Shown: piece after piece, positions 3,943 to 29,117 of the stretch
Position numbering within the stretch: the first letter of the stretch is position 1
Layout: every line of letters begins with the position of its first letter
Notes under the pieces: generated by a model
What the model was told of the DNA's origin: nothing
Database searches by the model: none
What the model saw: the letters and a program-made list of their open reading frames with translations, nothing else
Program-made: the position numbers and the translations under genes
Origin: Chloroflexota bacterium
GTDB lineage: Bacteria > Chloroflexota > Anaerolineae > Anaerolineales > Villigracilaceae
Direction of reading: 5' to 3'
DNA length: 64,000 nucleotides
Assembly: GCA_021787595.1 (NCBI GenBank)
Contig: JAJYLQ010000012.1
Location: 1-64,000, forward strand

Positions 3943-3975
3943 GGAATAAGATAATGAAAGTTGTGAATGTCCCGC

Positions 3976-4326
3976 CTATTTCATTCCCGCCAGAACTTTG
4001 GTGATGACCGTGTCCAGCAAAACAGAATCGACCTGTCCGTTCAGCCGCGCCAACACTGCGGATTTTATTCTTTGTTTCAATTCCGCATCGCTCGTTGATT
4101 CTCGTCGCTGCCCATCGCGCGGATACGCCGCCACCAAATTGACTGACTGACTGTAAATCGCTTTGGGCGGCGCGCCGGGTTCGACGCGGTTGATCTTGAT
4201 TCCATGTTTTAGCGCGCGTTCCACGGCGAGGTCCGTCATGACGACGTTGTCGGTCACGTCAATGCTCGTGACGCCGCGCGCCTTCATCTCATCAATATCG
4301 CGTTCGGTATAAAAGACTTTCGCCAT
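3976..4326 (-). CDS. Small BMC-associated protein: EutQ/EutT N-terminal-like domain plus amphipathic helix
   Basis: This 116-residue protein is last in the eut operon. Residues 1-47 (FYTERDIDEM, then DVTDNVVMTDLA, then HGIKI) match in pattern the N-terminus of EutQ in the same operon and the usual N-terminus of EutT. A variable linker follows, and residues 81-116 form one predicted amphipathic helix (LKQRIKSAVLARL, LLDTVITKVLAGM) that looks like a cargo-encapsulation peptide. A paralogue sits in the second BMC cluster at 28394. No catalytic residues are evident, so an adaptor or assembly role is my inference. The start at 4326 has AGGAGG upstream, eight bases after the preceding gene. Confidence 0.75.
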   Translation of the reverse strand: MAKVFYTERDIDEMKARGVTSIDVTDNVVMTDLAVERALKHGIKINRVEPGAPPKAIYSQSVNLVAAYPRDGQRRESTSDAELKQRIKSAVLARLNGQVDSVLLDTVITKVLAGMK

Positions 4327-4334
4327 CGAGCCTC

Positions 4335-4964
4335 CTATTTTTCGGGCCGGCCATCGAGTTCTTCGAGCGCTTTCACCGCCGCATTGCGCGCCGTGAGAAT
4401 CTCCGCCTCCGAGCCGGAGAGCCACATGCGGCCAAAACGTCCGACCGATGAGATGTGCAGCAATTTGATGGTCGAACCTTTCTCGGCTTCGTTGAAAGCA
4501 TAGTTGATGTACGCGGCAGGCGCGCATTCCAGGACCAGCATCGTTTCGCCGGGGACCAGCATCGAGCCGCGCCGGAAGCGATTCAGCAGTTGCGCCTGAT
4601 ATGGATCCACATTCGTAATGACTTGTATCGAAGCAATGGACGGCTTGACGCGGTCTTCGATCTTCAATCCGAGACGGGCCAGGACGATGCGCCCTGCTTC
4701 CAAAACTTCGGCCTGCGATTTCGAGTGAACCTCGAACATGCCGAACTCGCGCTCGACGATCTGCGCGCCCGGTTTTGCCTCCGTGGACTTGACCGCAATA
4801 TCCACGAGACGAAAGACTTCGTTGCCCGGTGCAACTTCGATGTATAACGCGGCCATGCCCTCGGTGGGAAGATCGCCCTGCGTGATCGTCCCGACGAAGG
4901 CCGCGTACTGCGGCTGCATCCGGTCGAGATAGGAATAGCAGCGAAGTGAAAATTGATCAGCCAT
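4335..4964 (-). CDS. BMC-T shell protein, CcmP/CsoS1D-like (permuted tandem domain)
   Basis: This 209-residue protein has two BMC domains, roughly residues 15-100 and 110-205. The opening SYLDRMQPQYAAFVGT and the block IVEREFGMFEVHS closely follow the pattern of CcmP and CsoS1D, trimeric shell proteins made of permuted BMC domains that can stack in pairs and have a gated central pore. Such trimers are thought to pass larger metabolites or cofactors. It is unusual beside a standard EutL-type trimer, so this shell has two different tandem-domain proteins. It lies eight bases upstream of the small protein gene and follows eutJ in the same direction. Confidence 0.85.
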   Translation of the reverse strand: MADQFSLRCYSYLDRMQPQYAAFVGTITQGDLPTEGMAALYIEVAPGNEVFRLVDIAVKSTEAKPGAQIVEREFGMFEVHSKSQAEVLEAGRIVLARLGLKIEDRVKPSIASIQVITNVDPYQAQLLNRFRRGSMLVPGETMLVLECAPAAYINYAFNEAEKGSTIKLLHISSVGRFGRMWLSGSEAEILTARNAAVKALEELDGRPEK

Positions 4965-4983
4965 AGAAAAGCTCCAATTATGT

Positions 4984-5040
4984 CGTCCTGGGCCTTCGCT
5001 TAAGAAACGTGATTCTTCGCTTCGCTCAGAATGACATTCA
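4984..5040. repeat. Dispersed repeat (cttcgctcagaatgaca type)
   Basis: The gap between eutJ and the CcmP-like gene contains GATTCTTCGCTTCGCTCAG followed by AATGACA, repeated at about 22729-22756. It belongs to the dispersed families that fill most gaps of this operon. Confidence 0.55.
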
Positions 5041-5045
5041 AAAGA

Positions 5046-5891
5046 TTAGTTGTGCATGGCAATGCCAAGCGGCGTGACGAATAATGGATTGCCGGGCAGC
5101 ACCGTTTCGATGCCCGTCACTTCCTGAACGACCTTGTCCATGCCGGGGTAGGCGCACGTGCCGCCTACCAGATAAATCCGTTCCACTTGATGACCTTGAA
5201 TGTGACGATTGATGATCGTACCGACTTTTTCCATCACGGGGCGGATGACCGGGAAGAGCCGCGTCTGCTCGTTTGGATTTTTCTTGAGCGCTTCGGCCTC
5301 CTCGAAAGTGGATCCCGTTGAACCGGCGATCACCAGCGAGAAGTGAGTCCCGCCGGTCGGCTCATCCGCTGTGTACACGACTTTGCCGTTTTCGAAAATT
5401 GCGATGCCTGTGGTCCCGCCGCCGACATCCACGATGGCGCCATCTTGAATTTGCAAAACGTTGTTGGCCGCGGTCGGTTCATCAATCAAACCTGTGCAAT
5501 CCAGCCCCGCGCCGTATAAAACATTCGCCGTCGCGCGGACTTCCGCTTGCGGCACGCCGGGCGGATACGCGGTGGCAGCGGATGTCAAGGTGAATCCAAG
5601 TTTCTCCTCGACCTTCGATTTCATCTTGCGAAGCAGATCCACCGCGCCGACAAAATCCACAACGAGACCATCGCGCACGACTTCCGCGAATTGATATTCG
5701 CCTGCGATGGGCTGGCAGTTTTCATCGAGCACGATCAGCACGGTGTAGGCCGTTCCCAAATCCACGCCGGCGTGGACCGTGCCGCGATAAATACCGGACG
5801 GCAAAAGCAGATCAGGGTCAGGATGCCAGCCATTGGCTCCAGACATGATCGAGTCGGTGCGGGTGAGAAGGTCAGAAAGATTCGGATTCAT
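5046..5891 (-). CDS. eutJ: Ethanolamine utilisation protein EutJ (Hsp70-like ATPase fold)
   Basis: EutJ is a conserved eut-operon protein of the actin/Hsp70 ATPase fold, thought to act as a chaperone for microcompartment enzymes. The sequence shows the fold's phosphate and adenosine blocks: GVDLGTAYTVLIVLD (phosphate 1), IDEPTAAN, VDVGGGTTGIAIF (phosphate 2) and YLVGGTCAYPGMD (adenosine). With the start at MNPNLSDLL (5891) it is 281 residues, close to enterobacterial EutJ. Upstream in-frame codons up to 6005 fall in a dispersed repeat and are not conserved, so the start is set here although the Shine-Dalgarno is weak. It follows eutT. Confidence 0.85.
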   Translation of the reverse strand: MNPNLSDLLTRTDSIMSGANGWHPDPDLLLPSGIYRGTVHAGVDLGTAYTVLIVLDENCQPIAGEYQFAEVVRDGLVVDFVGAVDLLRKMKSKVEEKLGFTLTSAATAYPPGVPQAEVRATANVLYGAGLDCTGLIDEPTAANNVLQIQDGAIVDVGGGTTGIAIFENGKVVYTADEPTGGTHFSLVIAGSTGSTFEEAEALKKNPNEQTRLFPVIRPVMEKVGTIINRHIQGHQVERIYLVGGTCAYPGMDKVVQEVTGIETVLPGNPLFVTPLGIAMHN

Positions 5892-5904
5892 TGATTCAAG
5901 AACC

Positions 5905-5964
5905 GGACACGGATTTCGCGGATTTCGTTTTCTCTTACTTCGTGCAACTTTGTGTCCTTTGTGG
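5905..5964. repeat. Dispersed repeat (CACAAAGGACACAAAG type)
   Basis: The eutT-eutJ gap contains CTTTGTGTCCTTTGTGG beside a 'gatttcgcggatttcg' stretch. Similar tracts are at about 7300-7378, 9437-9508 and 26846-26942, three of the four in gaps of BMC genes. Confidence 0.55.
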
Positions 5965-6735
5965 TTAAGTAAGCTTTCCTGCTTTGAAATACAACTCCAA
6001 AACATAAACTGCCGATGAAAAGCGATTCAACGCATGTGAAATATTATTTCCAATTCCACTTTGATCGAGGCCTCGATCCGCGCCGAAGGCCTCCAGCGCG
6101 ACCACTTCGACTTCGCGCGCCTGCGTCCGCAGGACATTCAGCCAGTGAATCATCTCGTGGTCTTCCGGCCCTGGAATGATGTGCTGGATTCCAAGATGAC
6201 GATCCGGCCAATGCGAAATTTCGTGTAGTTCTTCTTCGCGCTTGCCCAATAAAATCAAGGGAGCGACTGGCCGCGCATGATATTCAGCACTCATGATCTC
6301 ACGGCAATACGCCGACAATGTATCGAGGTGTGAGGCGAGACTCGCCATCTGAAATCCGCGCGCCTTCGCCGCGGCAAGCATGACCCAAGCATGGAGCGAG
6401 TCGACGCGTCCACGGAGGATCAGCCTCGGGTCCGTTTTGGATGCGAAGTGCCCCGCATCCAGTTGAGTCATGTGATCGGGCTTATGCTTGATCGGTTGTC
6501 CGCATACCGCGCAGACCGGAACGGGTCCGGTAAGGACGACGGGGAATGTGCCAGGCTTGTCCCAGTCAGGATGGATGTGATTCGATTCGATCACCTGTGA
6601 TTGCGCGTCCATTTTGTGTTGACGCAGAAACTCGCGCGCTAAATCGGTGAAGCGCGTCTCGGACGGAAACACAGGCAGCCGCCCGCGCCCGTTCTTCCAG
6701 TATTCACGCAATTCGCTTTCGGTGACGATCGTCAT
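5965..6735 (-). CDS. eutT: Ethanolamine utilisation cobalamin adenosyltransferase EutT
   Basis: EutT transfers adenosyl from ATP to cob(I)alamin, making the adenosylcobalamin needed by ethanolamine ammonia-lyase. This 256-residue protein has the EutT-specific metal site PVCAVCGQ (Cys75, Cys78) with nearby histidines (KHKPDH), then a helical ATP:corrinoid transferase domain with LRGRVDSLHAW and, near the end, IGNNISHALNRFSSAVYVLE. The first 45 residues carry the same short module as EutQ and the two small proteins (TESELREYW, SETRFTDLAREF). Its ATG overlaps the eutQ stop by four bases, so the two are translationally coupled. Confidence 0.9.
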   Translation of the reverse strand: MTIVTESELREYWKNGRGRLPVFPSETRFTDLAREFLRQHKMDAQSQVIESNHIHPDWDKPGTFPVVLTGPVPVCAVCGQPIKHKPDHMTQLDAGHFASKTDPRLILRGRVDSLHAWVMLAAAKARGFQMASLASHLDTLSAYCREIMSAEYHARPVAPLILLGKREEELHEISHWPDRHLGIQHIIPGPEDHEMIHWLNVLRTQAREVEVVALEAFGADRGLDQSGIGNNISHALNRFSSAVYVLELYFKAGKLT

Positions 6736-7292
6736 TTCTCGTTCCAGTTCACCGGATATACCACATACACAAAGCGCGTCCGGCTCGGCGTGCCGAACGT
6801 GATGCTCGACCCTTTCGGGATGTAAATGACATCGCCCGGGCCGCCGCGCACCTGCTCGATGCCGCGCGTGATCACCAGTTCGCCTTCAAGCACGATGTCC
6901 ATCTCGTCGTATGTCAACGTCCACTTCATCTCGCCTTTTTCGAGCGCCATGTAGCCCGCGCCCATCGGTCCGCGATCCTCTTTGACCACTACATCTTTCA
7001 GCCGGACGTTTGTACCCGGTGTGGCTGGTCCATCGAGGAACGGTTCCATGTTGACGCTCGCGCCATGCACGACTTTCAATGACGGTAACGATCCGCGTTG
7101 AGGCGAATCAAATGGCGTTTCTCTTCCAGGCTTTGAGTCTGATTCCGTTTCGCGGATGACTTTTACGCCCAGAGAGTATGCCACGTCCATGGCTTCGTGC
7201 GTGACGATGTCGTCCGCGCCCAGAAGGAGCGTGTTCGATGGCTCGCGCGCGATGCGGCGAATGTCTTCCGCGGTGAACAATTGACGCGACAT
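6732..7292 (-). CDS. eutQ: Ethanolamine utilisation cupin protein EutQ
   Basis: This 186-residue protein has an N-terminal BMC-associated module (LFTAEDIRRIA, ADDIVTHEAMDVAYSLGVKV) and a C-terminal cupin barrel (about residues 95-186) with GPMGAGYMALEKGEMKW, YDEMDIVLEGELVI and GDVIYIPKGSSITFGTPS. Enterobacterial EutQ has been reported as an acetate kinase despite its cupin fold; whether this distant copy shares that activity is unknown. If it does, it would supply the ATP-forming step missing from the cluster, though a phosphotransacetylase is still absent. The gene overlaps eutT by four bases. Confidence 0.85.
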   Translation of the reverse strand: MSRQLFTAEDIRRIAREPSNTLLLGADDIVTHEAMDVAYSLGVKVIRETESDSKPGRETPFDSPQRGSLPSLKVVHGASVNMEPFLDGPATPGTNVRLKDVVVKEDRGPMGAGYMALEKGEMKWTLTYDEMDIVLEGELVITRGIEQVRGGPGDVIYIPKGSSITFGTPSRTRFVYVVYPVNWNEK

Positions 7293-7299
7293 AACGATG

Positions 7300-7378
7300 G
7301 TTAACTAACCACGCAGGACACGAAGAGAAACGAAAACTTCGCGCTCTTCGCGTTCTTTGCGGTTCGATTAACCGCGCT
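7300..7378. repeat. Dispersed repeat (CACAAAG/cgcgaag type)
   Basis: The eutM-eutQ gap holds TTAACTAACCACGCAGGACA, then runs of 'cttcgcg' and a GGTTCGATTAACC end. It is similar in style to the repeats at 5905 and 9437. Confidence 0.5.
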
Positions 7379-7381
7379 GAC

Positions 7382-7711
7382 TTACTTTTCTTTTCCGCCG
7401 CCGCGTCCGCCGAAGGAACCCTTCGTATTTTGCGGCAGGATCATCTCGACATCGGAGTGAGGGCGAGGAATCACGTGGACCGAGGCAAGCTCGCCGACGC
7501 GCTTCGCAGCGGCCGCGCCCGCGTCCGTGGCGGCCTTCACCGCACCGACGTCGCCGCGCACCATCACGGTCACGTATCCGCCGCCGACATATTCACTGCC
7601 GATCAGCGTCACGTTGGCGGCTTTGACCATGGCATCGGCGGCTTCGATCGCGCCCACCAGGCCTTTGGTCTCCACCATCCCAAGAGCAATCATGGAAACA
7701 TCTACTGGCAT
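7382..7711 (-). CDS. eutM: BMC-H hexameric shell protein (EutM/PduA type)
   Basis: This is the only single-domain BMC shell gene in the window, so it should form the bulk hexagonal facets. The 109 residues start with the canonical [20 protein letters not shown] and continue through [19 protein letters not shown] to [12 protein letters not shown]. The pore-loop region corresponding to the usual K-x-G/S-x-x loop follows 'YVGGGY'. The tail after IPRPH is longer than in EutM and ends in a Gly-rich basic stretch ([11 protein letters not shown]), which may reach across the shell face. It sits between the aldehyde dehydrogenase and eutQ. Confidence 0.95.
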
Positions 7712-7779
7712 AGCAAACTCCTTTGATGATAATTTTTCCGATTAGACATCGGATGTCGGGGTTGAAATGAATTCAACTC

Positions 7780-7886
7780 TGAGATCTGAGTTCTAACCAG
7801 TCTCATCGCGCTGAGCGGAGTGTAACGTAGTCGAAGCGCCCTTCGACTTTTCTCGCCGAACGCGGCTCGCTCCGCTCAGGGCGAAA
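7780..7886. repeat. Dispersed repeat (gctgagcggag...ctccgctcag type)
   Basis: The gap upstream of eutM has GCTGAGCGGAGTGTAACG followed by TAGTCGAAGCGCCC and GCTCCGCTCAGGGCGA, a palindromic unit known as filler in many genomes. A fragment of the same type (GCTGAGCTTGTCGAAGC) is nested in the insertion at 50594-50660. Confidence 0.55.
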
Positions 7887-9398
7887 CTATTTCTTCAACT
7901 CCAACAATACTTTTCTCACGATCTCATCCACTTGTGAATCAACATTGCCCGATGGAACAGATGCGGGCGAAGAATAAGAGCTACCTGTAAACAAACTTCT
8001 TTGTGCAGGTGCATCCGTCGAACCGGGGGCAAACGCTTCGGGCGGAGGAACGCGCATCTCGTAAGCCAGCTTCTTTACGTTGTAAAGATGATGCACGGTG
8101 ATGTTGTCGCCGGTGATCGCGCCCCCGATCCCGCCGGAGCCGAGCGTCATGGATGGCATCACGCCGGTCGTGTATCCCGTCGCGCCGAGCGTGCCCCACG
8201 TGTTGACCAAAATACGAAAGACCGGTTTTTCCAATCCGAATTGCATGATGACGTTTTGATCCTGCGCATGGATGACGAGCGAATGCCCGCGCCCGCCGTA
8301 TTGGATGAGTTCAATGGAACGCTCGCAGCCGGCTTCCCAGCCGTCGGCTTCGTACCAGCCAAGCACGGTGGTCAATTTCTCGCCGGAAAGCGGTTCCTCC
8401 GGGCCGACGCCTTTCAATTTGCAGACGATGATACGCGCCCAATCCGGCACGCTGAATCCATACATCTGCGCCAGTTGCTGCGGACTCTTTCCAACCGCTT
8501 TAGGATTCGGCAAATGCCCAACAAACAAATTCTTGGCAAGAATTTTCGACATTGTCTCATCGGCAAAATACGCGCCTTCGGCTTTCATCAACTCTTCGAG
8601 CCTGGATGCAATCGGGCGATCCGCAACCACGGATTGCTCGGTGGCGCAAATCACGGAATGATCGAATGCTTTCGACGAGACGATATATTTCGCGGCGCGC
8701 TGTAAATCAGCGGAGCGGTCAACATAAACCGGCACATTGCCGGGGCCAACGCCGTAAGCTGGTTTGCCGACCGAATGCGCGGCGCGCACCATATCCGAGC
8801 CGCCGGTAGCAAGGATCAGCGCTGTATATTTATGTCTCATCAATTCCTGCGTGCCGGGCAGTGTGATGCGTGTCATGCACGAGATCAATCCCTTTGGCAT
8901 TCCGGCGCGTTCGCCAGCTTCGGCCATAATACGGATCGTCTCGACACAACACTTGTAAGCAGACGGATGCGGGGCAACCACAATCGCATTGCGCGCCTTG
9001 ACCGCGATCAGTGTTTTGAACATCGTCGTCGAAGTTGGATTCGTGCTAGGAGTCAGCGCGGCCACCACGCCCATCGGCCAGGCAATATCGTACGTTCCTT
9101 TTTGCGGATCGTGCCCGATCACGCCGACCGTTGGAATGTCTTTGATCGCGTCCCAAAGGATCTTCGACGAAAGCACATTCTTGAGAACTTTATGTTCTGG
9201 AACGCCGTAGCCTGTTTCCTCGACTGCCATCTTTGCCAGCGACTGGGACGCATCATACGCGGCTTGCGCCATCGCCGCGCAGATGCGATCCACTTCAGCC
9301 TGAGTCGCGTGAAGGAATTTTTGCTGCGCCTCGCGCGCCTGTACAGCCAGCGTGCGTGCTTCTTGAATGGAGAGAAGATCGTTATCAAGGTCTGCCAT
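7887..9398 (-). CDS. eutE: Acylating acetaldehyde dehydrogenase (EutE-like), BMC cargo
   Basis: This 503-residue enzyme should oxidise acetaldehyde with NAD+ and CoA to acetyl-CoA inside the shell. The catalytic cysteine is in HSVICATEQ (Cys251), and the CoA-acylating EutE/PduP pattern is supported by ALTPSTNPTSTTMFK and GGSDMVRAAHSVGKPAYGVG. The last residues after a Ser/Pro-rich linker are VDEIVRKVLLELKK, a typical C-terminal encapsulation peptide; in EutE and PduP the peptide is N-terminal, so this copy has it at the other end. The start at 9398 (MADLDND) is preferred over an in-frame start at 9416. It is the only aldehyde dehydrogenase in either BMC cluster. Confidence 0.92.
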   Translation of the reverse strand: MADLDNDLLSIQEARTLAVQAREAQQKFLHATQAEVDRICAAMAQAAYDASQSLAKMAVEETGYGVPEHKVLKNVLSSKILWDAIKDIPTVGVIGHDPQKGTYDIAWPMGVVAALTPSTNPTSTTMFKTLIAVKARNAIVVAPHPSAYKCCVETIRIMAEAGERAGMPKGLISCMTRITLPGTQELMRHKYTALILATGGSDMVRAAHSVGKPAYGVGPGNVPVYVDRSADLQRAAKYIVSSKAFDHSVICATEQSVVADRPIASRLEELMKAEGAYFADETMSKILAKNLFVGHLPNPKAVGKSPQQLAQMYGFSVPDWARIIVCKLKGVGPEEPLSGEKLTTVLGWYEADGWEAGCERSIELIQYGGRGHSLVIHAQDQNVIMQFGLEKPVFRILVNTWGTLGATGYTTGVMPSMTLGSGGIGGAITGDNITVHHLYNVKKLAYEMRVPPPEAFAPGSTDAPAQRSLFTGSSYSSPASVPSGNVDSQVDEIVRKVLLELKK

Positions 9399-9436
9399 AA
9401 TCACTCTTTCAACCACAACCCCGTTAGAGTGCGGGG

Positions 9437-9508
9437 CTTAAGACACAAAGGGCACGAAGAAAGAAGGAAAGATGAAAGAATCTTCGCGGCCTTAGCGACT
9501 TCGCGGTT
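9437..9508. repeat. Dispersed repeat (CACAAAGGGCACGAAG type)
   Basis: The eutL-aldehyde dehydrogenase gap holds GACACAAAGGGCACGAAG followed by 'cttcgcggccttagcgacttcgcgg', a member of the same family as 5905-5964 and 26846-26942. Confidence 0.5.
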
Positions 9509-9510
9509 CA

Positions 9511-10167
9511 TCAATAGTTCATCGGTTGACTTGCCACTTCCAACACTTTATTTTGAAATGCAACAGCCGCGGCTTTGCAGGCGGGCTGGTCGCCGGTCAG
9601 CATCACGCCCATGTAGTTCGTCTCCGAAGGCGGCATGGTCAACGAAACGATTCGCACATCCGCGGCTTTGAGCGCCGCATCCAATGCGACCAGGCCTTCG
9701 TTCGGCGGTGCGATCAGATAAGCAATCGGCGTGCCGACGGGAATATCGCAGACTTTCGAAAGGTAGGTTCCGGTGCGCGAGATGACATGCGGGAAAAAGG
9801 CGATGGAACCATCTTCATTGGCGGAATACCAGAGCGCCTCGTTCTTCAAGTATTGGACCGCGGCATTGAGTCCGGCTCGGACTTCGGCGGGATCGGGTCC
9901 CGCTAAAATTGCCATGATCTCGCCTGACAATTTTCCCGACGTATGCTTCGCGCCCGCGTAGAACGAATGCGCGTACACGACTTCCACATCAGCCATCTTC
10001 GTGGCTTCGTCAATGGATACGTACGTTGCGTCGTCGTTGTCCGCGCTGATGAGGCCGATGGACAGTTGATCGTCGCGGAGCTTGAGTCGACTCGCGAAGC
10101 TGCGATCCACTTGCGGAATCAATTGAACACATAACGGCGTTGCATAAATTGGGTCGAGAATTGCCAT
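9511..10167 (-). CDS. eutL: BMC-T shell protein EutL
   Basis: This 218-residue tandem-BMC-domain protein has the same length and pattern as EutL, a trimer with a gated pore. The opening PIYATPLCVQLIPQVDRSFA and LGLISADN-like block (SIGLISADNDDATYVSIDEA) are characteristic, as is SFYAGAKHTSGKLSGEIMAI. The second domain runs from about residue 110 (WYSANEDGSIAFFPHVIS) to the end. The start at 10167 has GAGGAA at good spacing; an ATG two codons upstream is too close to that site. It lies between eutC and the aldehyde dehydrogenase, separated from eutC by a palindromic repeat. Confidence 0.92.
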   Translation of the reverse strand: MAILDPIYATPLCVQLIPQVDRSFASRLKLRDDQLSIGLISADNDDATYVSIDEATKMADVEVVYAHSFYAGAKHTSGKLSGEIMAILAGPDPAEVRAGLNAAVQYLKNEALWYSANEDGSIAFFPHVISRTGTYLSKVCDIPVGTPIAYLIAPPNEGLVALDAALKAADVRIVSLTMPPSETNYMGVMLTGDQPACKAAAVAFQNKVLEVASQPMNY

Positions 10168-10180
10168 AGTCATTTCCTCA

Positions 10181-10261
10181 TGTCGTTGCGAGTCTTCGAG
10201 AAGCAATCTCCTCGCTGATCGGAGATTGCCACGTGGCGCCCTGGCGCCACTCGCAATGACA
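10181..10261. repeat. Palindromic dispersed repeat, TGTCATTGCGAG family
   Basis: An 81-bp unit begins TGTCGTTGCGAG and ends CTCGCAATGACA, with GTGGCGCCCTGGCGCCAC near the right end. The same terminal 12-mers bound units at 12858-12971, 18674-18713, 56413-56516 and others. It ends immediately at the eutC stop codon. Confidence 0.8.
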
Positions 10262-11248
10262 TTACTTAGCCAGCTTCAATTTCACGCCTGACGCCTGGTT
10301 CTTTCGCATCTTCTGTGCGATTTGTACCACATACGCGCCGGCTTCGAGCGGATTCGTTCCACCGTTTTCAAAGATGTTGCAGACCACATCGCGGTCGGCG
10401 TCGGTGTCGCCGTATTTCGGTTTATAGCCCATGTACGCGCTCATCGACTCAGCGCGGCCCAGGCCGGGACGCTCTCCGATCAACAGAACCACCACATCCG
10501 GTTTGATGAGTTCGCCAACATCGTTCATCACGCCGACGCGCGCGTACTTTATGAAAAACGGTGTTCCAAAAGTCAGATTTGCATTTTGCACGCCCTGTCT
10601 GATGACCGGAAACATCTGGCGCAGATTCGCTTCGATTGCCGCGGCGGATAAGCCGTCGCCAACGACCAATTGGACATTCACGTTCTTCTGGCATTTCTCG
10701 TTGATGATATGTTTGGCATCATCACTCAACTGGCGTCCAAGATCGGGACGCAGCAAATATTCCTGTTTGCCGCCTTCGACTTTGGTTTGAACGGTAAACA
10801 GATTGAATTCGTCGAGCAGTTTCTGATCCACGTCACGATATAAAGCATCCTGCGTAATTGCGTGATCGCCCTGGAACAATAATAATGAAGCCGTGCTGTA
10901 ACGCGGACCGGCGCGTCCAACGCCGATGCGCGCCGTGGTCGAAGCCATCAGCGCGCGCAGACCGTTTGCGTCTTTCGGGTTTTTGACGCGCGGCGTCATG
11001 CGCGCTTGCGGAGTCGTTGGGTCAGGCAGATCAATGTTCAGTGCGGCGCTTGAGCCGGTTGCGCGCGGTTTGACGGGGACAACGGAGGGCGATGATAAAG
11101 CCGTCGAAACGGGAGCCGATGCAAAGTCGGATGAAGAAGCGAGGGATTGCTTCGCTTTGCCCGCAATGACATTTGTTTTCACTGCTCCCGATTCTTTTAA
11201 TTCGCGAACAATCGCATCCACAATCGCGGCTAGTTGGGCGTCATCCAT
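10262..11248 (-). CDS. eutC: Ethanolamine ammonia-lyase small subunit EutC
   Basis: EutC forms the adenosylcobalamin-dependent ammonia-lyase with EutB, splitting ethanolamine to acetaldehyde and ammonia. The 328-residue protein is slightly longer than E. coli EutC because of a low-complexity linker (about residues 25-85). The N-terminal helix (DAQLAAIVDAIVRELKESG) matches the known EutC encapsulation peptide. The conserved core shows GVGRAGPRYSTASLLLFQGD, VVGDGLSAAAIEANLRQ and LLIGERPGLGRAESMSAY, the last two binding the cobalamin tail side in known structures. It follows eutB after a 225-bp gap holding a palindromic repeat. Confidence 0.95.
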   Translation of the reverse strand: MDDAQLAAIVDAIVRELKESGAVKTNVIAGKAKQSLASSSDFASAPVSTALSSPSVVPVKPRATGSSAALNIDLPDPTTPQARMTPRVKNPKDANGLRALMASTTARIGVGRAGPRYSTASLLLFQGDHAITQDALYRDVDQKLLDEFNLFTVQTKVEGGKQEYLLRPDLGRQLSDDAKHIINEKCQKNVNVQLVVGDGLSAAAIEANLRQMFPVIRQGVQNANLTFGTPFFIKYARVGVMNDVGELIKPDVVVLLIGERPGLGRAESMSAYMGYKPKYGDTDADRDVVCNIFENGGTNPLEAGAYVVQIAQKMRKNQASGVKLKLAK

Positions 11249-11335
11249 AACTTATCTCTTGCGATCTGTGTAGGATGCGTTCTCGCTAACGCATCCGGCG
11301 GCGTTAGAAAAAACGCCGACTATCATACAGCGCAA

Positions 11336-11433
11336 GGTCAGGCTCAAGCCGCCGTCTCGAAGATCCCGCGCAGCGGGACCGGCGGCGTCCAGGCTGCGCT
11401 GAGGACGGCGCAGCGAGCCACTTTGCGCTGTAA
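11336..11433. repeat. GC-rich inverted repeat in the eutB-eutC gap
   Basis: Ends TACAGCGCAA (11337-11346) and TTGCGCTGTA (about 11423-11432) are perfect complements and enclose GC-rich sequence with internal palindromes (CCCGCGCAGCGGG). It occupies the largest gap of the eut operon. I did not find another copy in the window. A hairpin here could change the EutB:EutC expression ratio. Confidence 0.5.
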
Positions 11434-11473
11434 TACTATGGAATAAAAGAAAAGTCCGCGAATGATTCACAAT

Positions 11474-12841
11474 CTATCTCTTCAGAAAGATGGACGGGTC
11501 GCCGGCTTTTTCGGTCAGCACACCATCTTTCATCAAGCCGAGGTCAACCATCCATTTTTCGAATTCGGGCGCGGGACGAAGTTTGAATAATTGCCGCAGG
11601 GCGGGCGCATCATGAAATGAAGTGCTTTGATAGGAAAGCATCGAGTCGTCGCCCATGGGGAGTCCCATAAAATAATTGCACCCCGCGGCGGTGAGCATGA
11701 CTGCGAGATTCTCAATGGCGTTTTGATCGGCGCGGGCATGATTAGTATAACAGGCATCACACCCCATCGGAATACCGGTGAGCTTGCCCATGAAATGATC
11801 TTCGAGTCCGGCGCGCTGAATTTGGCGCGCATCGTAAAGATATTCGGGACCGATAAATCCAACGACGGTATTGACTTGATAAGGATGATAACGTTTCGCA
11901 AATCCGTAACAACGCGCTTCCATCACGAGCTGATCCCAGCCATTGTGCGCGTCAGCGGAAAGCTCGGAGCCTTGTCCCGTTTCAAAGTACATGAAGTTCG
12001 GACCTTTGGGGAAGCAGTGCTTTTTGGCAAGTTCGTACGCTTCGTCAATCATGCCGACGGAGATGCCGAATGAGTCATTTCCTTTTTGCGAACCCGCGAT
12101 GGACTGGAAAACCAATCCAACTGGCGAGCCGGATTGCATACATTTCATCTGTGTTGTGACGTGTGACAGCACACAATTCTGTGTTGGAATGTTCCAGGTC
12201 CTGATGATGTCATAAGACATATCGAGCAGACGGGCAACGGAACTGTAAGAATCATCAACCGGATTGATCCCGATAACTGAGTCGCCAGAACCGTAAGACA
12301 AGCCTTCATAGATTTCGGCGCGGATGCCTTCGGGCGAATCAGTTGGATGATTGGGCTGGTTGCGCGAAGAAAGCGTTCCCGGCATGCCGATGGTGTTGTT
12401 GCAATGCGCGCTGACGGGCATCTTTTTCGCGCCATACATCAAATCGAGATTGGACATCAGCTTCGTGACGCCCGCGATCATTTCAGCAGTTAATCCGTTG
12501 GAGGCGCGATGGATCATTTCGGTAGTGGTCGTATCCGCTAAAATCCATTCGCGGAATTCGCCAACGGTCCAGTCCTTGATTTCATTGTAAACCGACTCAT
12601 CCACTGCATCTTGGATGACGCGCGTAATTTCATCCTGGTCATACGGCACGGCGGGACTTTCGCGCAAAACCCAAAGCGGCACTTCCGCTAAAACCAATTT
12701 GGCCGCGACGCGTTCCGCGGCGGTCTCCGCGCCCACGCCCGCGAGACGATCACCCGATTTCTCCTCGTTGGCTTTGCCCATGAGGAGTCGGATATCCGGG
12801 AATTCGTAGGTCTTGCCGTGCAGTTTCGTGCGGAGCAGCAT
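11474..12841 (-). CDS. eutB: Ethanolamine ammonia-lyase large subunit EutB
   Basis: EutB is the catalytic TIM-barrel subunit of ethanolamine ammonia-lyase. This 455-residue copy is the usual length and has strongly conserved blocks: DTTTTEMIHRASNGLTAEM, MPVSAHCNNTIGMPGTLSSR, SYGSGDSVIGINPVDDS, QSIAGSQKGNDSFGI, ETGQGSELSADAHNGWDQ and MGCDACYTNHARADQN. These include the substrate-binding and cobalamin-contacting residues of the known structures. No encapsulation peptide is visible, so it probably enters the shell bound to EutC. A TGTCATTGCGAG repeat separates it from eutA. Confidence 0.97.
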   Translation of the reverse strand: MLLRTKLHGKTYEFPDIRLLMGKANEEKSGDRLAGVGAETAAERVAAKLVLAEVPLWVLRESPAVPYDQDEITRVIQDAVDESVYNEIKDWTVGEFREWILADTTTTEMIHRASNGLTAEMIAGVTKLMSNLDLMYGAKKMPVSAHCNNTIGMPGTLSSRNQPNHPTDSPEGIRAEIYEGLSYGSGDSVIGINPVDDSYSSVARLLDMSYDIIRTWNIPTQNCVLSHVTTQMKCMQSGSPVGLVFQSIAGSQKGNDSFGISVGMIDEAYELAKKHCFPKGPNFMYFETGQGSELSADAHNGWDQLVMEARCYGFAKRYHPYQVNTVVGFIGPEYLYDARQIQRAGLEDHFMGKLTGIPMGCDACYTNHARADQNAIENLAVMLTAAGCNYFMGLPMGDDSMLSYQSTSFHDAPALRQLFKLRPAPEFEKWMVDLGLMKDGVLTEKAGDPSIFLKR

Positions 12842-12857
12842 AATGGCTCTTATTTTA

Positions 12858-12971
12858 TGTCATTGCGAGTGGCGCCTAAGCGCCACGTGGCAATCTTATG
12901 GAACTACTACTCTGCGAATCACTTGAGATTGCTTCGTCGTGGCGCCAACAGCGCCACTCCTCGCAATGACA
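12858..12971. repeat. Palindromic dispersed repeat, TGTCATTGCGAG family
   Basis: A 114-bp unit with perfect 12-bp terminal inverted repeats (TGTCATTGCGAG at 12858, CTCGCAATGACA ending 12971) and internal GAGATTGC/GCAATCT and GGCGCC blocks. It fills the eutA-eutB gap. Confidence 0.85.
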
Positions 12972-12980
12972 GGCATAAAA

Positions 12981-14441
12981 CTAATGATAGAAAATCAAAG
13001 TCTTCACGCTCAACGGGACGACGCGTCCATCCATAAGCGGAGTGCCCAAATCAATGTAGTCGCCTTCCGATAAGCCAACTTGATCAATGACCAGTAAAGA
13101 ACGTTCGGGAGCGAGACCTTTCAGCGTTTGTCCTAACGCTTGGGCATAATCGCGTTCGATGATGACAACCAGCGGTCGTCCCTTCGGCATTGTATCTGAA
13201 AATTCGCGCAGGCCGCTTGCGAGTTGTGAGAGCGAAGTATAGTCGAGCGGACGGTTTAGTTCAAGCGCAATGGCAAATGGATCGGTCGAAATGTTCACAT
13301 CCCAGCGGCGAACGGCTTCAGCAATTGCCATCGAAATGACAGACGGTGCAGGGGCGGGGTCGTCCCGCCCAGATGCAAGCATTGGCCGAATCACCGGCAC
13401 GTTCTTCATCGGCAGGATTTCACGCTCGGCCCAAATCGTCGAGCCGGATAATGTCACAGTTTGCGTGCTTGCGCCCAAAACAGTTGCACGCAGCGTTTCT
13501 GCGGGACGCGCAATTTCATACGAATTCAAAACTGAATGCTGGCGCAAAGACTCCGCGAGCAAAGGGCCGACATCATCATGAACCGTTGCGTCTGCGACAG
13601 AATCAATTTTGATCGGGTTGTAATAATAATGTCCGATGCCGCCCGAAAACATCAACACTGTTCCTTTGCCCGAAACTGGCGCGGGCGGCGTAAGATACAC
13701 TTTTTGCGCCAGCGGCGAGGATGTGCCCTCGATCAACTCGACCGCCAGATCCGCCATGCGATTCGTGAAGCGGCGCAGATCATCGAGCGACGGCGAATCA
13801 CCGATTATCAATTCCAAATTACAGTCTTTTAAAATGTGCTTTGCAGGCTCGGCGATGTGACGAACTAAGCCGCTTCCGCGCTCGACCTCGAGGATGCGCC
13901 CGCCAAAATTCATTGCCGCGCCGCTGACGTAGTTTCCGTTTTCAAACGTCACGCTGTTGGCGCTTCCGCCGCCGATATCAACATTCGTGACGGTTGCATA
14001 ATGCGTCTGCGAATAGAGCGCCGCGCCCGCGCCTTTGCCCGCGATGAGGCTTTCCACATTGGGTCCCGCCACGCTGACGACAAATTCTCCAGCCAAGCCC
14101 GAAAGCGCGCGCAGGATTTCATCCGCATTTTTCTTTTTGGCTGTCTCACCCGTGATGATGACCGCGCCGGTTTCGACTTGCTTTGGATCAACGTTTGCCG
14201 CGGCATATTCGCGCCGCACGATTTCGTTGAGTTTGTCCGCATCAACAGTTTCATAATCCTTGAGCGGCGTAAAAACAATCGGGCTTTGATAGATCACGGC
14301 GCGGTCGGTGATGTTGATGCGCGGAATTTGTCCGGGGCGCGCCGCGTCTGTAAGACTCAGGCGCGAAAAAACAATCTGCGTGGTGGTGGTTCCCACATCC
14401 ACGCCAACGGAAAGCAGATCGTGTGCCTCGCTGTCTGGCAT
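12981..14441 (-). CDS. eutA: Ethanolamine ammonia-lyase reactivating factor EutA
   Basis: EutA is the ATPase that removes damaged cobalamin from inactivated EutBC. The 486-residue sequence shows an actin/Hsp70-type ATPase fold: SVGVDVGTTTTQIVFS (phosphate 1), the conserved GETAKKKNADEI, NVDIGGGSANSVTFENG (phosphate 2) and MFSGGIGHYYYN (adenosine). ATVLGASTQTVTLSG also matches EutA. It lies between eutN and eutB as the second gene of the operon. Confidence 0.95.
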   Translation of the reverse strand: MPDSEAHDLLSVGVDVGTTTTQIVFSRLSLTDAARPGQIPRINITDRAVIYQSPIVFTPLKDYETVDADKLNEIVRREYAAANVDPKQVETGAVIITGETAKKKNADEILRALSGLAGEFVVSVAGPNVESLIAGKGAGAALYSQTHYATVTNVDIGGGSANSVTFENGNYVSGAAMNFGGRILEVERGSGLVRHIAEPAKHILKDCNLELIIGDSPSLDDLRRFTNRMADLAVELIEGTSSPLAQKVYLTPPAPVSGKGTVLMFSGGIGHYYYNPIKIDSVADATVHDDVGPLLAESLRQHSVLNSYEIARPAETLRATVLGASTQTVTLSGSTIWAEREILPMKNVPVIRPMLASGRDDPAPAPSVISMAIAEAVRRWDVNISTDPFAIALELNRPLDYTSLSQLASGLREFSDTMPKGRPLVVIIERDYAQALGQTLKGLAPERSLLVIDQVGLSEGDYIDLGTPLMDGRVVPLSVKTLIFYH

Positions 14442-14451
14442 ATCTTTACGC

Positions 14452-14527
14452 GCTGATTACTGTCTACTGCTTACTACTCACTGCTTACTGCTCACTGCTT
14501 ACTGCTCACTGACCACTGCTCACTGCT
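14452..14527. repeat. Short degenerate tandem repeat (actgctcactgctta)
   Basis: About ten copies of a 7-8 base unit (ACTGCTC / ACTGCTT variants) fill the eutN-eutA gap and overlap the last codons of eutN. On the other strand this reads AGCAGTGAGCAGTAAGCAGT, the same motif as at 42129-42178 and 46405-46505. Confidence 0.8.
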
Positions 14528-14810
14528 TTTGATAGGTGAATTTCCCGCCCGATTCGAGCGAGTCGATCACGCCAACAATGACCGAGTCAACCGACGCGTT
14601 TTGGGTGAGTCCGGTATAGCGCGCGGACGAGCCTTCGGTAACGATGACCAGATCGCCCGTCCCCGCGCTGACCGTATCTACCGCGATATACGGTTCGCCG
14701 GTGGGTTTGCCTTCCGTATCCGCAGCGCGCACGATCAACAGCTTGCGCCCGCGCAAAGCTTCGTCTTTGATGGTGGAAACGGTCGAACCAATGACAAGTG
14801 CGATTCGCAT
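14520..14810 (-). CDS. eutN: BMC-P pentameric vertex protein EutN
   Basis: This 96-residue protein is an EutN/CcmL-family pentamer that caps shell vertices. It has the family pattern VIGSTVSTIKDEALRGRKLL, then IAVDTVSAGTGDLVIVTEGSSAR and DSVIVGVIDSL. It is most similar in the window to the vertex protein at 27980, which supports a recent duplication linking the two clusters. The start at 14810 has GAGG four bases upstream; in-frame codons further upstream are not conserved. It is the first eut gene downstream of the candidate promoter at 14878-14906, and its end lies in a short tandem repeat. Confidence 0.93.
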   Translation of the reverse strand: MRIALVIGSTVSTIKDEALRGRKLLIVRAADTEGKPTGEPYIAVDTVSAGTGDLVIVTEGSSARYTGLTQNASVDSVIVGVIDSLESGGKFTYQKQ

Positions 14811-14877
14811 GGTGGCCTCACAAATTAACGGTTGTGAAATCCTTTGGAATGGAACACGAATGAGCCGATCTTTTCTG

Positions 14878-14906
14878 ATTGTACAGGATGAATGATATTT
14901 GGGCAA
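14878..14906 (-). promoter_or_regulatory. Candidate promoter of the eut operon
   Basis: On the minus strand TTGCCC (14906-14901), a 17-bp spacer and TACAAT (14883-14878) form a reasonable sigma-70 promoter about 68 bases upstream of the eutN start. This would let the eut operon start independently of the upstream MFS gene. No operator or riboswitch structure was seen in the leader. Confidence 0.4.
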
Positions 14907-26263: not shown

Positions 26264-26842
26264 GTGGCTGTCAACGATTCGGAAATTCATCAGATCGTGG
26301 AAAAGGTGCTCGACCAGGTTTTAACCGCGCCGGTCCCAACGTCAGCCGCGAAAACCGAATCGAAAAACGGAGGCCGCAAAATCGTCGCCGTGGGAGCCGA
26401 TCACGGCGGCTTTGAATTGAAAGAAGTCCTGAAAGCAGATTTGAATCAATTGGGCTTCGACATCAGCGATGTTGGCACGCACAGCAAAGAGTCCGTGGAT
26501 TATCCCGACTTCGCGCATGAAGTTGCGAAGCTGGTCAGTTCAGGAAAAGCGTGGCGGGGAATCGTCATTGACGGCGCGGGAATCGGAAGCTGCATCGTCG
26601 CCAATAAAGTCCCCGGCGTGCGCGCCGGGATGGCGTATGATGTTTCATCGGCGGTCAACAGCCGCGAACACAACGACACAAATGTGCTGACGCTGGGCGC
26701 GGGATTGATCGGAACAAATCTCGCGAAGCAAATCGTCAAAACGTGGCTCACAACCGAATTCGGCGGCGACCGCCACGCACGGCGCGTCGATAAAATCAAA
26801 CGGATCGAAAAGCAATATTTGATTCTGCCGAAAGGAAATTAA
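26264..26842 (+). CDS. rpiB: RpiB-type sugar-phosphate isomerase with N-terminal encapsulation peptide
   Basis: This 192-residue protein is an RpiB/LacAB-family isomerase (ribose 5-phosphate to ribulose 5-phosphate, or a similar reaction). The core begins near residue 40 with VAVGADHGGFELKE (Asp46, His47) and continues with DVGTHSKESVDYPDFA, VIDGAGIGSCIVANKVPG and SREHNDTNVLTLGAGL. At the position of the usual catalytic Cys of (V)CGTGIG the sequence has Asp103; mycobacterial RpiB uses Glu elsewhere as base, so activity is possible. Residues 5-20 (DSEIHQIVEKVLDQVL) plus a linker are an extra amphipathic helix typical of BMC cargo. First gene of the second BMC cluster. Confidence 0.9.
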   Translation: MAVNDSEIHQIVEKVLDQVLTAPVPTSAAKTESKNGGRKIVAVGADHGGFELKEVLKADLNQLGFDISDVGTHSKESVDYPDFAHEVAKLVSSGKAWRGIVIDGAGIGSCIVANKVPGVRAGMAYDVSSAVNSREHNDTNVLTLGAGLIGTNLAKQIVKTWLTTEFGGDRHARRVDKIKRIEKQYLILPKGN

Positions 26843-26845
26843 ACA

Positions 26846-26942
26846 CGACCCTCACAAAACGAAGGGCAAGCAGGCACGAAGTAGCACAAAGTTTTGAAAG
26901 AGTTTTTCCTTCGTGTTCCGTTGTGTCCTTTGTGTTAAAAGT
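26846..26942. repeat. Dispersed repeat (CACAAAG / CTTTGTG type)
   Basis: The rpiB-deoC gap holds ACACGACCCTCACAAAACG, then CCTTCGTGTTCCGTTGTGTC and CTTTGTGTTAAAAG, a loose inverted repeat of the same family as in the eut operon gaps. Confidence 0.55.
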
Positions 26943-26980
26943 TTTTTGAAATAGAATCACATTTGAAGAACGAGCATGGA

Positions 26981-27907
26981 ATGGATATTGACAGAAAAAC
27001 CGTAGAACAACTCGTCGAGATCATCACACACGAAGTCCTGGCTGCGATGGCGGAGCAGACGAGCCAGGGCGATATTCCCGAGGGAGCGCAATGCAAATTC
27101 AATTGCGCCGGCGGCGTTTGCGTCAACATGTGCCTTGACCGCACCGGAAGCGTCGTCAGCGCGGGGGCAGAACGGCTTTCATCGAACGTGGGCGTGATCC
27201 CGCAGGATTTGAGTCTGGCGAAGATGATTGACCACACGCTGCTCAAGCCGGATGCAACTCAGGACGAAATCGCGCAATTATGTTTCGAGGCAAAGAAATA
27301 TGGTTTCGCATCGGTGTGCGTCAACCCCACGTGGACGGAATTGTGCGCGACGCTGCTCAAAGGCTCGGACGTGAAAGTCTGTGTCGTGATCGGATTCCCG
27401 TTGGGCGCGACCGCGCCGGAAGTTAAAGCATTCGAGACACAGAACGCAATCGAACACGGCGCGAGCGAGATTGACATGGTCATCAACATCGGCGCGCTGA
27501 AGGCGCGTGATCTTGAGACAGCGGCGCGCGATATTCGCGGCGTGGTCACGAAGGCGCATGCGCGCGGCGCAATCGTCAAAGTGATCATCGAAGCGGTTCT
27601 GTTGAACGATGAAGAAAAGAACATCGCCTGCCTGCTCTCGAAAGAAGCCGGCGCGGACTTTGTCAAAACGTCCACCGGGTTTGCCAGCGGCGGCGCGACC
27701 GTCCATGACGTGGAATTGATGCGGCGCGCAGTCGGCCCGGAAATGGGAGTCAAAGCTGCGGGCGGAGTCCGAACGTATGAAGACGCGGAAAGCATGATCA
27801 AAGCCGGGGCGACGCGCATTGGTGCCAGCGCGGGAGTCAAAATTATTCAGGGACCTGGTCTGGCAAAGCCCGCCGCGGCGGGCGCATCGCCTGCAAAGAA
27901 TTATTGA
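26981..27907 (+). CDS. deoC: Deoxyribose-phosphate aldolase (DeoC) with N-terminal encapsulation peptide and Cys motif
   Basis: DeoC splits 2-deoxyribose 5-phosphate into acetaldehyde and glyceraldehyde 3-phosphate. The catalytic residues are clear: Asp165 (EIDMVINIG), Schiff-base Lys229 ([10 protein letters not shown]) and Lys258 ([11 protein letters not shown]). The core starts near residue 78; before it are an amphipathic helix ([19 protein letters not shown]) resembling BMC targeting peptides and a stretch with four cysteines (Cys38, 42, 47, 51; spacing Cx3Cx4Cx3C) not part of standard DeoC. It lies in a BMC cluster, so acetaldehyde would be released inside the shell. ATG at 26981 chosen; an in-frame TTG at 26963 is possible. 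Confidence 0.93.
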
Positions 27908-27912
27908 TCTTA

Positions 27913-27963
27913 TGTCACTGCGCGGCAGTCTGGAAATAACATGAGATTGCCACGCAATGACAC
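27913..27963. repeat. TGTCATTGCGAG-family repeat (short, diverged)
   Basis: TGTCACTGCGCGG ... GAGATTGCCACGCAATGACA. It sits between deoC and the next eutN. Confidence 0.65.
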
Positions 27964-27979
27964 TGGAACAGGAAACGTT

Positions 27980-28270
27980 ATGCTGATCGCAAAAGTAATT
28001 GGAACGACCGTCTCCACCATCAAGGACGAGAAACTTCACTCCCGCAAATTGTTGATCCTGCGCCAAACGGACGAGACCGGCGCAGCGTTTGGCAAACCGT
28101 ATGTTGCCGTGGACACGGTTGACGCGGGCATCGGCGATTTGGTGTTGACCGCCGCAGGTTCGTCCGCGCGGCAAACGAATCTCACGAAGGACTCGCCGGT
28201 TGATTCGGTCATCATGGCGGTGATCGATTCGCTCGAAGTGGACGGAACGGTCACGTTCCGCAAATCATGA
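27980..28270 (+). CDS. eutN: BMC-P vertex protein (EutN type), copy 2
   Basis: This 96-residue EutN/CcmL-family pentamer is the closest relative in the window of the eut-operon copy at 14520: both share VSTIKDE, AVDTV, GDLV and SSAR blocks and DSVI..VIDSLE. The start ATG at 27980 has AGGAAA upstream; 13 in-frame codons before it come from the preceding repeat. The similarity suggests duplication between the clusters, or one founding cluster that split. Confidence 0.93.
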   Translation: MLIAKVIGTTVSTIKDEKLHSRKLLILRQTDETGAAFGKPYVAVDTVDAGIGDLVLTAAGSSARQTNLTKDSPVDSVIMAVIDSLEVDGTVTFRKS

Positions 28271-28275
28271 CTCTA

Positions 28276-28372: not shown

Positions 28373-28393
28373 TGTGAGCATTTGGAACAAGCA

Positions 28394-28783
28394 ATGCCTA
28401 AAATCTTTTACACCGAGAAAGACATGGACGAATTATTCAAGCAGGGCATTCGGTCTTTGAAAGTGACCGATCAAGTTGCGCTGACTGACCTGGCATACGA
28501 ACGCGCCAATCGCTTGGGGATTCGATTGGATCAGGATACAGCAGACAATCCTCCCGCGGCTCCCGTTCGGCCGTATCTTTCCCAACCTTCGACGCCGCGC
28601 GCGTCAACGCCGGAGTCCTTCCCCTCAACTCCTCAACCTCGCTCAGTCCAGACTGCAAACGGGCGCGGCGATCTGCAAGCGCGCATCCGGGACGCGGTCA
28701 CCGCGCGGCTCGGCAATCAAATTGATCCGGCCTTATTGGATTCGATCATTCAACGCGTGATCAAAGCGACTGGGCTGAAATAA
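28394..28783 (+). CDS. Small BMC-associated protein, paralogue of 3976-4326
   Basis: This 129-residue protein has the same plan as the last gene of the eut operon: N-terminal module IFYTEKDMDELFKQGIRSLK, VTDQVALTDLAYERANRLGI; a Pro/Ser-rich linker of about 45 residues; and a C-terminal helix region LQARIRDAVTARLGNQIDPA followed by LLDSIIQRVIKATGL. The helix matches the other copy closely (both have a short hydrophobic repeat, a basic RIK/RIR block and 'LLD.(V/I)I..V'). Presence of one copy in each BMC cluster argues for a structural or targeting role in a shared shell. Function not established. Confidence 0.75.
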   Translation: MPKIFYTEKDMDELFKQGIRSLKVTDQVALTDLAYERANRLGIRLDQDTADNPPAAPVRPYLSQPSTPRASTPESFPSTPQPRSVQTANGRGDLQARIRDAVTARLGNQIDPALLDSIIQRVIKATGLK

Positions 28784-28787
28784 TCAA

Positions 28788-29108: not shown

Positions 29109-29117
29109 GTCAAATCT

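Follow-up and report, generated by a model that had tools for sequence, protein, structure and literature searches.

Two small proteins in the 64-kb stretch of DNA analysed here (hereafter the window) bear on how a metabolosome connects its enzyme core with its shell. The window contains two microcompartment (BMC) clusters, one per strand, and each cluster encodes one of these proteins, A or B, as an earlier note had found without giving the strand, which is minus for A. By gene content, the clusters belong to types EUT3 and SPU6 in the 2021 catalogue, the available text of which notes SPU6 in Anaerolineae and EUT3 with a BMC-T(dp) protein (PMC8217296). The genome measures 4.08 Mb, and in a whole-genome search every PF00936 match falls inside the window. 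The clusters, the two proteins and their parts are as follows.

About 4.0-14.9 kb, minus strand: EUT cluster, with EutN, EutA, EutB, EutC, EutL, EutE, EutM, EutQ, EutT, an EutJ-like ATPase, a CcmP-like BMC-T and protein A.
26.3-29.4 kb, plus strand: SPU cluster, with RpiB, DeoC, EutN, protein B, EutN and EutN.
3976..4326, minus strand: protein A, putative stand-alone adaptor of the EUT cluster, 116 aa.
4186..4326, minus strand: H1/H2 module of A, residues 1-47 (AF2 strands and helices at 4-47), homologous to EutQ-N.
4096..4185, minus strand: flexible linker of A, residues 48-77 (low pLDDT), with the EUT-type SVNL motif.
3982..4095, minus strand: helices H3 (78-94) and H4 (101-115) of A, from the AF2 model, aligned with E. 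coli EutQ H3/H4.
28394..28783, plus strand: protein B, putative stand-alone adaptor of the SPU cluster, 129 aa.
28394..28534, plus strand: H1/H2 module of B, residues 1-47, from the alignment to A.
28535..28663, plus strand: Pro-rich linker of B, with the SPU-type APVRPYL motif.
28664..28774, plus strand: helices H3 and H4 of B, from the alignment to A.

We report here the homology, architecture, BMC association and locus-type groups of A and B and, judging from sequence, put at about 72% the probability that both are stand-alone shell-cargo adaptors, homologous throughout to Salmonella-type EutQ (residues 1-99), with the module directed to the shell and H3/H4 to encapsulation peptides (EPs). 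Specifically, the H1/H2 module would dock on the shell and, across the flexible linker, the helix pair would bind cargo enzymes by their encapsulation helices. The ethanolamine arm would be served by A, the deoxyribose-phosphate arm by B; by homology, both would act like EutQ1-99 with the same polarity, dividing the cargo between them.

A and B are 43% identical. Protein A has an ATG start, 8 nt separate it from the CcmP-like gene upstream, and an AGGAGG overlaps that gene's stop codon; the ORF of protein B opens at 28367, with the conserved start, MPK..., at 28394. In agreement with the claimed absence of a catalytic domain, A and B match no Pfam family at E<=1, and no family recurs convincingly across 32 family members. 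The EutQ cupin (PF06249) is thus missing from both, and A and B therefore correspond to the N-terminal part of EutQ, not to EutQ. Nor does either match PduM (PF15953) at E<=1, the module being all that PduM and A/B have in common, and the match of A to TIGR02536, confined to the C-terminal module region of that model, reaches 11.7 bits, below the curated cut-off of 152.6. AF2, given 32 aligned sequences, models A at a mean pLDDT of 73.6, with four helices in the order of EutQ1-99. The module region of A, 4-47, has a pLDDT of 79-89 by ten-residue block, and residues ~51-80 are of low confidence, in line with the variable linker described earlier; the lengths of the stand-alone proteins range from 95 to 132 aa.

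The module, of ~45 residues, had been said to recur at the N-termini of EutQ and EutT, and profile comparison bears this out, with hhalign giving P 98.1% (E 6.8e-14) against EutQ-N and P 58% (E 9.9e-5) against EutT-N. With the profile of the stand-alone module, 0/2000 shuffles score as high as the window EutQ and 1/2000 as high as the window EutT; for E. coli EutT, 119/2000 do, which is not significant. In the shuffle tests, HMMER lists 1354-1861 of 2000 sequences (3952-4802 of 5000 for PduM), and unlisted ones are counted as lower. The two occurrences lie at:

7152..7292, minus strand: module at the N-terminus of EutQ (6732-7292), from profile matches and shuffles, with which a low-confidence AF2 model agrees.
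6598..6735, minus strand: module at the N-terminus of EutT (5965-6735), from profile matches and shuffles.

On EutQ and EutT the module probably tethers those enzymes to the shell. No Pfam model is dedicated to it. Its fold found no Foldseek match at E<=0.001, and the best VIA-align score (Z 5.2) stands among many unrelated small alpha/beta proteins. A search for solved structures related by sequence also gave nothing, at E<=10 with the A/B profile and at E<=1 with the N-terminus of E. coli EutQ. The module may conceivably resemble a rearranged pyruvate-dehydrogenase subunit-binding domain.

Beyond the module, A corresponds to the whole N-terminal segment of EutQ. The NCBIfam EutQ model matches A across EutQ 3-99 (E 2.9e-4), at 20.6 bits far short of its cut-off of 193, and the profile of 32 stand-alones finds E. 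coli EutQ across 2-100 (E 3.2e-5 at Z=4000). At E<=1, the EutQ model matches 18 of the 32 members and TIGR02536 16; among ten members scanned with coordinates, the EutQ model matches five, four of them over both halves, and TIGR02536 five, all in the last ~42 positions. In Salmonella, according to the available text of a paper of October 2025, EutQ1-99 consists of four helices, H1/H2 being required for the link to the shell and H3/H4 for that to cargo; by itself it targets a reporter to the compartment, the EutC EP is bound with a Kd of 6.35 uM by EutQ and 7.60 uM by EutQ1-99, and the cupin is dispensable for compartment assembly (PMC12487888). From these matches and this function, we take A and B to be the free-standing counterpart of EutQ1-99, and the earlier remark that no function had been described does not hold for the homologous segment. 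Like EutQ1-99 of Salmonella Typhimurium as published, A and B have an H1/H2 module, a flexible linker, H3/H4 with the key hydrophobic residues of H4, and a gene in a BMC locus; unlike it, they are free-standing, have no cupin, occur as two paralogues per genome and accompany an EutM that differs at residue 64.

The residues named for Salmonella were located in E. coli EutQ by adding 4 to their numbers, the sole one of eight offsets that fits all five of them. Q75, L89 and V93 matter for EP binding (PMC12487888, available text). Across the 32 stand-alones, V93 is V in 30, L89 is I, V or L in 31, and R67 is R or K in 30, in favour of the adaptor reading; Q75 is K or R in 28 and Q in three, and E64 is not kept, which speaks against the adaptor reading.

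On the shell side, the candidate docking partners in the window are:

4335..4964, minus strand: CcmP-like BMC-T shell protein, encoded directly upstream of A, with no Pfam match yet a match to CcmP (PDB 4ht5) at E 1.2e-63.
7382..7711, minus strand: EutM, BMC-H shell protein (PF00936), with K53 and D57 kept and K at residue 64.
9511..10206, minus strand: EutL, BMC-T shell protein, with PF00936 in two stretches.

The gene of an EutJ-like ATPase of the actin/Hsp70 fold (5046-6005) directly precedes the CcmP-like gene and is kept in many loci. K53 and D57 of EutM are kept in 25/25 rows compared. Residue 64 is K in 23/25, a change of the Q64K type that abolishes EutQ binding when made in Salmonella EutM (PMC4827028, available text), and this weighs against the adaptor reading. 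The departure from the Salmonella binding surface would suit a different arrangement, in which A and B bind only EPs, with both ends and within the core, which they shape, and another protein attaches the shell. We hold this to be quite unlikely: in vitro binding of EutM is lost when the first 100 residues of EutQ are removed, as the available text of the same 2016 paper reports (PMC4827028), EutQ, EutM and EutL bind one another (PMC12487888, available text), and A/B-type genes adjoin shell genes.

At the C-terminus, what had been read as one long amphipathic helix is, in the AF2 model of A, a pair (78-94 and 101-115), and it is the second of these that is clearly amphipathic. Averaged over the family, the hydrophobic moment of the first helix has p 0.64, meaning that H3 is not amphipathic, a result against the adaptor reading, and for the second p is 0.054 at 100 degrees, or 0.005 if the best angle is taken. 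In single sequences, 0/4 helices of A and B reach p 0.05, and 2/4 cargo encapsulation peptides do. With no enzyme domain and a first helix that is not amphipathic, A and B are unlike a simple encapsulation peptide on an enzyme. The suggested resemblance of the C-terminus to such a peptide survives in part. The helix pair aligns with the EP-binding H3/H4 of EutQ, the stand-alone H3/H4 profile scoring the E. coli EutQ H3/H4 at 4.7 bits (7/2000 shuffles as high), yet the same profile scores some cargo EPs at up to 12 bits, above EutQ H3/H4 and thus against the adaptor reading; the A/B C-terminus may therefore behave like an EP.

Since cargo EPs score no worse than EutQ H3/H4, the polarity could also be reversed, as in a CcmN-like protein, with the module bound to the enzyme core and the C-terminal helices acting on the shell in the manner of an encapsulation peptide, and the fusion of the module to several enzymes, described below, would fit that arrangement. 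The deletions made in Salmonella say the opposite, EutQ without 62-99 being found with the shell and EutQ without 9-41 with the cargo, and EP binding was mapped to EutQ 63-99 by NMR and ITC (PMC12487888, available text), so that we regard the reversed polarity as unlikely. If H3/H4 of A and B instead bind EPs, as we favour, the following enzymes, whose EP-like helices are read from sequence, are the candidate cargo.

10262..11248, minus strand: EutC with an N-terminal EP-like helix (moment p 0.064), candidate cargo of A.
7887..9416, minus strand: aldehyde dehydrogenase EutE with a C-terminal EP-like helix (moment p 0.024), candidate cargo.
26264..26842, plus strand: RpiB with an N-terminal EP-like helix (moment p 0.020), candidate cargo of B.
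26963..27907, plus strand: DeoC with an N-terminal EP-like helix (moment p 0.14, not significant), candidate cargo of B.

Between its EP-like helix and the aldolase, the window DeoC (26963-27907) has a four-cysteine stretch, C-x3-C-x4-C-x3-C, and a similar stretch occurs in most SPU DeoC rows compared; a metal or Fe-S site is possible.

Within the window, only the EUT cluster (4335-14906) has the genes of EutM, EutL, the CcmP-like protein and the aldehyde dehydrogenase, and A and B therefore probably load one mixed shell. In particular, no aldehyde dehydrogenase, BMC-H or BMC-T gene was recognised in the window SPU cluster (26264-29390). Five family-f1 genomes have both clusters (G000, G152, G216, G240 and G390); in their SPU clusters no aldehyde dehydrogenase, CcmP-like protein or EutJ was recognised, and EutM was recognised in that of G216 only. 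The ethanolamine and deoxyribose-phosphate pathways both yield acetaldehyde and probably share one shell and one dehydrogenase.

EutQ in A's own cluster has the module without H3/H4, unlike Salmonella EutQ as published. Specifically, the stand-alone profile matches only the first 50-66 residues of nine Chloroflexota EutQ proteins (183-194 aa, the window's included). The window EutQ scores -2.7 bits against the H3/H4 profile (1171/2000 shuffles as high), and no helix pair stands between module and cupin in its AF2 model, the confidence of which is low (mean pLDDT 51). The EutQ of genome G208 has one EP-like helix, read from sequence, and a stand-alone is present there too. In G323 and G324, of the class of G301, EutQ-like proteins match the entire stand-alone profile, and no separate stand-alone was matched.

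The A/B profile detects 11/301 Chloroflexota genomes at E<=0.01, seven of them clearly (E<=1e-9) and four weakly (E 0.004-0.009), and three of the seven carry two stand-alone copies. A collection scan gave 25 loci, of which the named ones belong to Chloroflexota, mostly Anaerolineales, and to one Desulfobacteraceae bin. Two plasmid matches to B (Roseibium and Labrenzia; E 0.2-0.3) were discarded, the Roseibium one lying amid polysaccharide genes. The nearest recognised upstream gene is CcmP-like for 27/34 stand-alone genes, and EutN follows the stand-alone in 19/19 SPU-type rows; the row pairs L016/L018 and L005/L027 are seemingly the same contigs from two collections. In a tree of 32 stand-alones, 12 EUT and 20 SPU rows part with one change (support 90/95.8, unstarred by the tool); the wider tree has 37 rows, of which L021, L026, L033, L108 and L111, with untyped loci, are left out of the EUT/SPU counts. 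In line with this division, the linker motif AP[VIA]RPY[ILM] occurs in 17/20 SPU and 0/12 EUT stand-alones, and SVN[LMIT] in 8/12 EUT and 0/20 SPU ones. A and B represent two groups of the proposed adaptors, which follow locus type. These data bear on the idea that A and B, whose sequence is that of the EutQ N-terminal half, are functionless remnants of an EutQ gene after loss of the cupin. We consider this far-fetched, because both halves are kept in 32 aligned rows that group by locus type, the gene position is fixed, EutQ is present beside A, and relatives occur in other phyla, where five non-Chloroflexota stand-alones align full-length with the Chloroflexota ones (hhalign P 95.2%, E 2.7e-8).

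The module itself tracks microcompartments. In the genome of the window, the module profile A4, built from a 27-row alignment, gives four matches at E<=1.3e-15, all in the two clusters, and the next at 0.3; among the ORFs of the first 42 loci, module matches at E<=0.01 are stand-alones, EutQ and EutT only. Among 400 Chloroflexota genomes, 21 have a module match at E<=0.01 and 29 have PF00936 above cut-off. Before curation, the module is found in 16/29 shell-positive versus 5/371 other genomes (Fisher p 7.7e-17), and after it, with four chance matches dropped and G015 added, in 17/29 versus 1/371 (2.6e-21). The four dropped matches, named by reading the sequences, are three MenD-like proteins and one cytidylate-kinase-like protein. 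The sole shell-negative genome with the module after curation, G440, has a CcmP-like gene and a stand-alone on another contig. In a second phylum, that of G301 (297 genomes), the counts are 10/13 versus 12/284 raw (1.3e-10) and 10/13 versus 0/284 curated (2.3e-16); all four p-values ignore relatedness. Here, 12/22 raw module-positive genomes were dropped because the match spans only 17-37 of 49 positions and PF00936 is not above cut-off. The profile search with the module that the earlier note had proposed as a check thus did not refute a BMC association, whether in the genome of the window or in the co-occurrence within two phyla.

Ten shell-positive genomes of family f31, nine with recognisable SPU loci, have no detectable module, which counts against the adaptor reading; in one of the nine, G031, the RpiB start lies off the contig. 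The f31 SPU loci without a stand-alone or detectable module are L115-L118, L121-L123, L127, L128 and L132. The strict rule of one bridging protein in every BMC locus failed on the f31 loci and was rejected. Additionally, the module was not detected in three shell-positive genomes of the phylum of G301.

Other proteins carry the module as well. In six genomes (G455, G011, G136, G176, G425 and G015), the RpiB of an SPU locus has an EP and the module ahead of the isomerase, and no stand-alone adaptor was recognised in the stretches covered; loci with such an RpiB are L101, L102, L103, L105, L106 and L125. The 12 RpiB rows of stand-alone loci, one of them incomplete, have no module at E<=1. TIGR02536 or TIGR02536-like proteins of C. 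difficile, Listeria and Cetobacterium have a C-terminal module (0, 1 and 0 of 2000 shuffles as high) and an N-terminal EP-like helix, read from sequence. The TIGR02536 proteins of EUT2 loci resemble A and B in having the module, here at the C-terminus, and in a gene just before eutN (C. difficile, Cetobacterium), and differ from them by the EP-like N-terminus and a middle domain; a literature search found no published function for this family. The PduL (PTAC) of Acetoanaerobium has the module at its C-terminus (2/2000 shuffles as high). Small stand-alones are present in the EUT2 loci of Cetobacterium and Acetoanaerobium, and behind a BMC-T gene in L160-L162; these are the five that align with the Chloroflexota ones. 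In the Cetobacterium small protein, the module half is not significant (54/2000 shuffles as high), and for the H3/H4 half 3/2000 shuffles score as high.

The module also occurs next to shell genes in BFD-like [2Fe-2S] proteins (L163:1245-1955 and L166:12126-12830), at the N-terminus and with an EP-like stretch, adjoining a CcmP-like gene; in a class V aminotransferase (PF00266; L165:3089-4552), at the N-terminus, adjoining BMC-H, BMC-T and EutN genes; and in a malate/lactate-type dehydrogenase (L104). A class III aminotransferase (L100, the same as L107:5252-6781 and G440:C125; nearest NCBIfam PRK06148/PRK06149) has it at the N-terminus too. No BMC gene was recognised in the 16 kb around L100, and this enzyme is possibly a remotely encoded BMC cargo.

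PduM carries the module at its C-terminus (L169:1006-1497, L168:1026-1505 and L066:2151-2630). The last 50 residues of PduM from E. coli, Citrobacter and Listeria score 17.0, 19.4 and 18.1 bits, with 0/5000 shuffles as high, and for the PduM N-terminus 1059/5000 shuffles are as high. The match is mainly over the second half of the module, E-values for whole PduM are modest (0.0081, 0.00083 and 0.0033 for E. coli, Citrobacter and Listeria at Z=5000), and in an hhalign comparison of PduM with the module, where an Ilyobacter flavoprotein-module protein is included as fourth row, P is 96.9% (E 1.5e-10). According to the available text of one paper, PduM1-23 is an EP and PduM has no known sequence homology outside Pdu (PMC12108088); in the consulted parts of the literature naming both, we found no statement relating PduM to EutQ. 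PduM resembles A and B in that it has the module, in its C-terminal ~45 residues, and that its loss partly separates core and shell, shell-cargo co-localisation falling to R 0.42 from 0.78 (PMC9132943, available text). It differs in that the order is reversed, with an N-terminal EP, a middle domain and a C-terminal module. When PduB1-37 is missing, PduM is strongly with cargo and shows no significant shell association, as reported for one background (PMC9132943, available text). The PduM module alone therefore does not hold the shell, which is against the adaptor reading and lends something both to a reversed polarity and to A and B acting within the core only.

Taken together, the earlier proposal of a docking unit carried by adaptors stands in so far as the module is BMC-associated and the full EutQ1-99 architecture is present, while binding is attributed by homology. 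The best explanation of A and B is that they represent, as free-standing proteins, an adaptor segment described only recently; more novel are the domain family at large and the inclusion of PduM in it. No stand-alone form of EutQ1-99 is described in the available text of PMC12487888, nor a stand-alone adaptor in that of the 2014 and 2021 catalogues (PMC4207490, PMC8217296). The first of these also mentions EutQ homologues in glycyl-radical BMCs and notes that in Enterococcus faecalis and Listeria EutQ lacks helices one to three, and that assembly may consequently be different in these bacteria (PMC12487888), and a 2020 paper, in its available text, states that metabolosomes lack specific additional adaptor proteins (PMC6971018). 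By function only, A and B can be likened to the linkers CcmN, CsoS2 and PduB1-37, in each of which a polypeptide, or part of one, is dedicated to joining cargo and shell (PMC12487888, PMC9132943, available text). On a wider view, to which we give even odds, the unnamed ~45-residue domain is a general metabolosome shell-docking domain that has moved among stand-alones, EutQ, EutT, PduM, TIGR02536, RpiB, PduL, BFD, dehydrogenase and aminotransferases; loci using it would usually keep one polypeptide joining it to an EP or an EP-binding helix, and two pathways in one shell would have one adaptor per pathway. If this is true, the stand-alone family and a docking domain common to EutQ, PduM and TIGR02536 would join these cases, each carrier would be testable by a small truncation, and the domain would offer a sequence handle for cargo prediction and for the loading of engineered shells.
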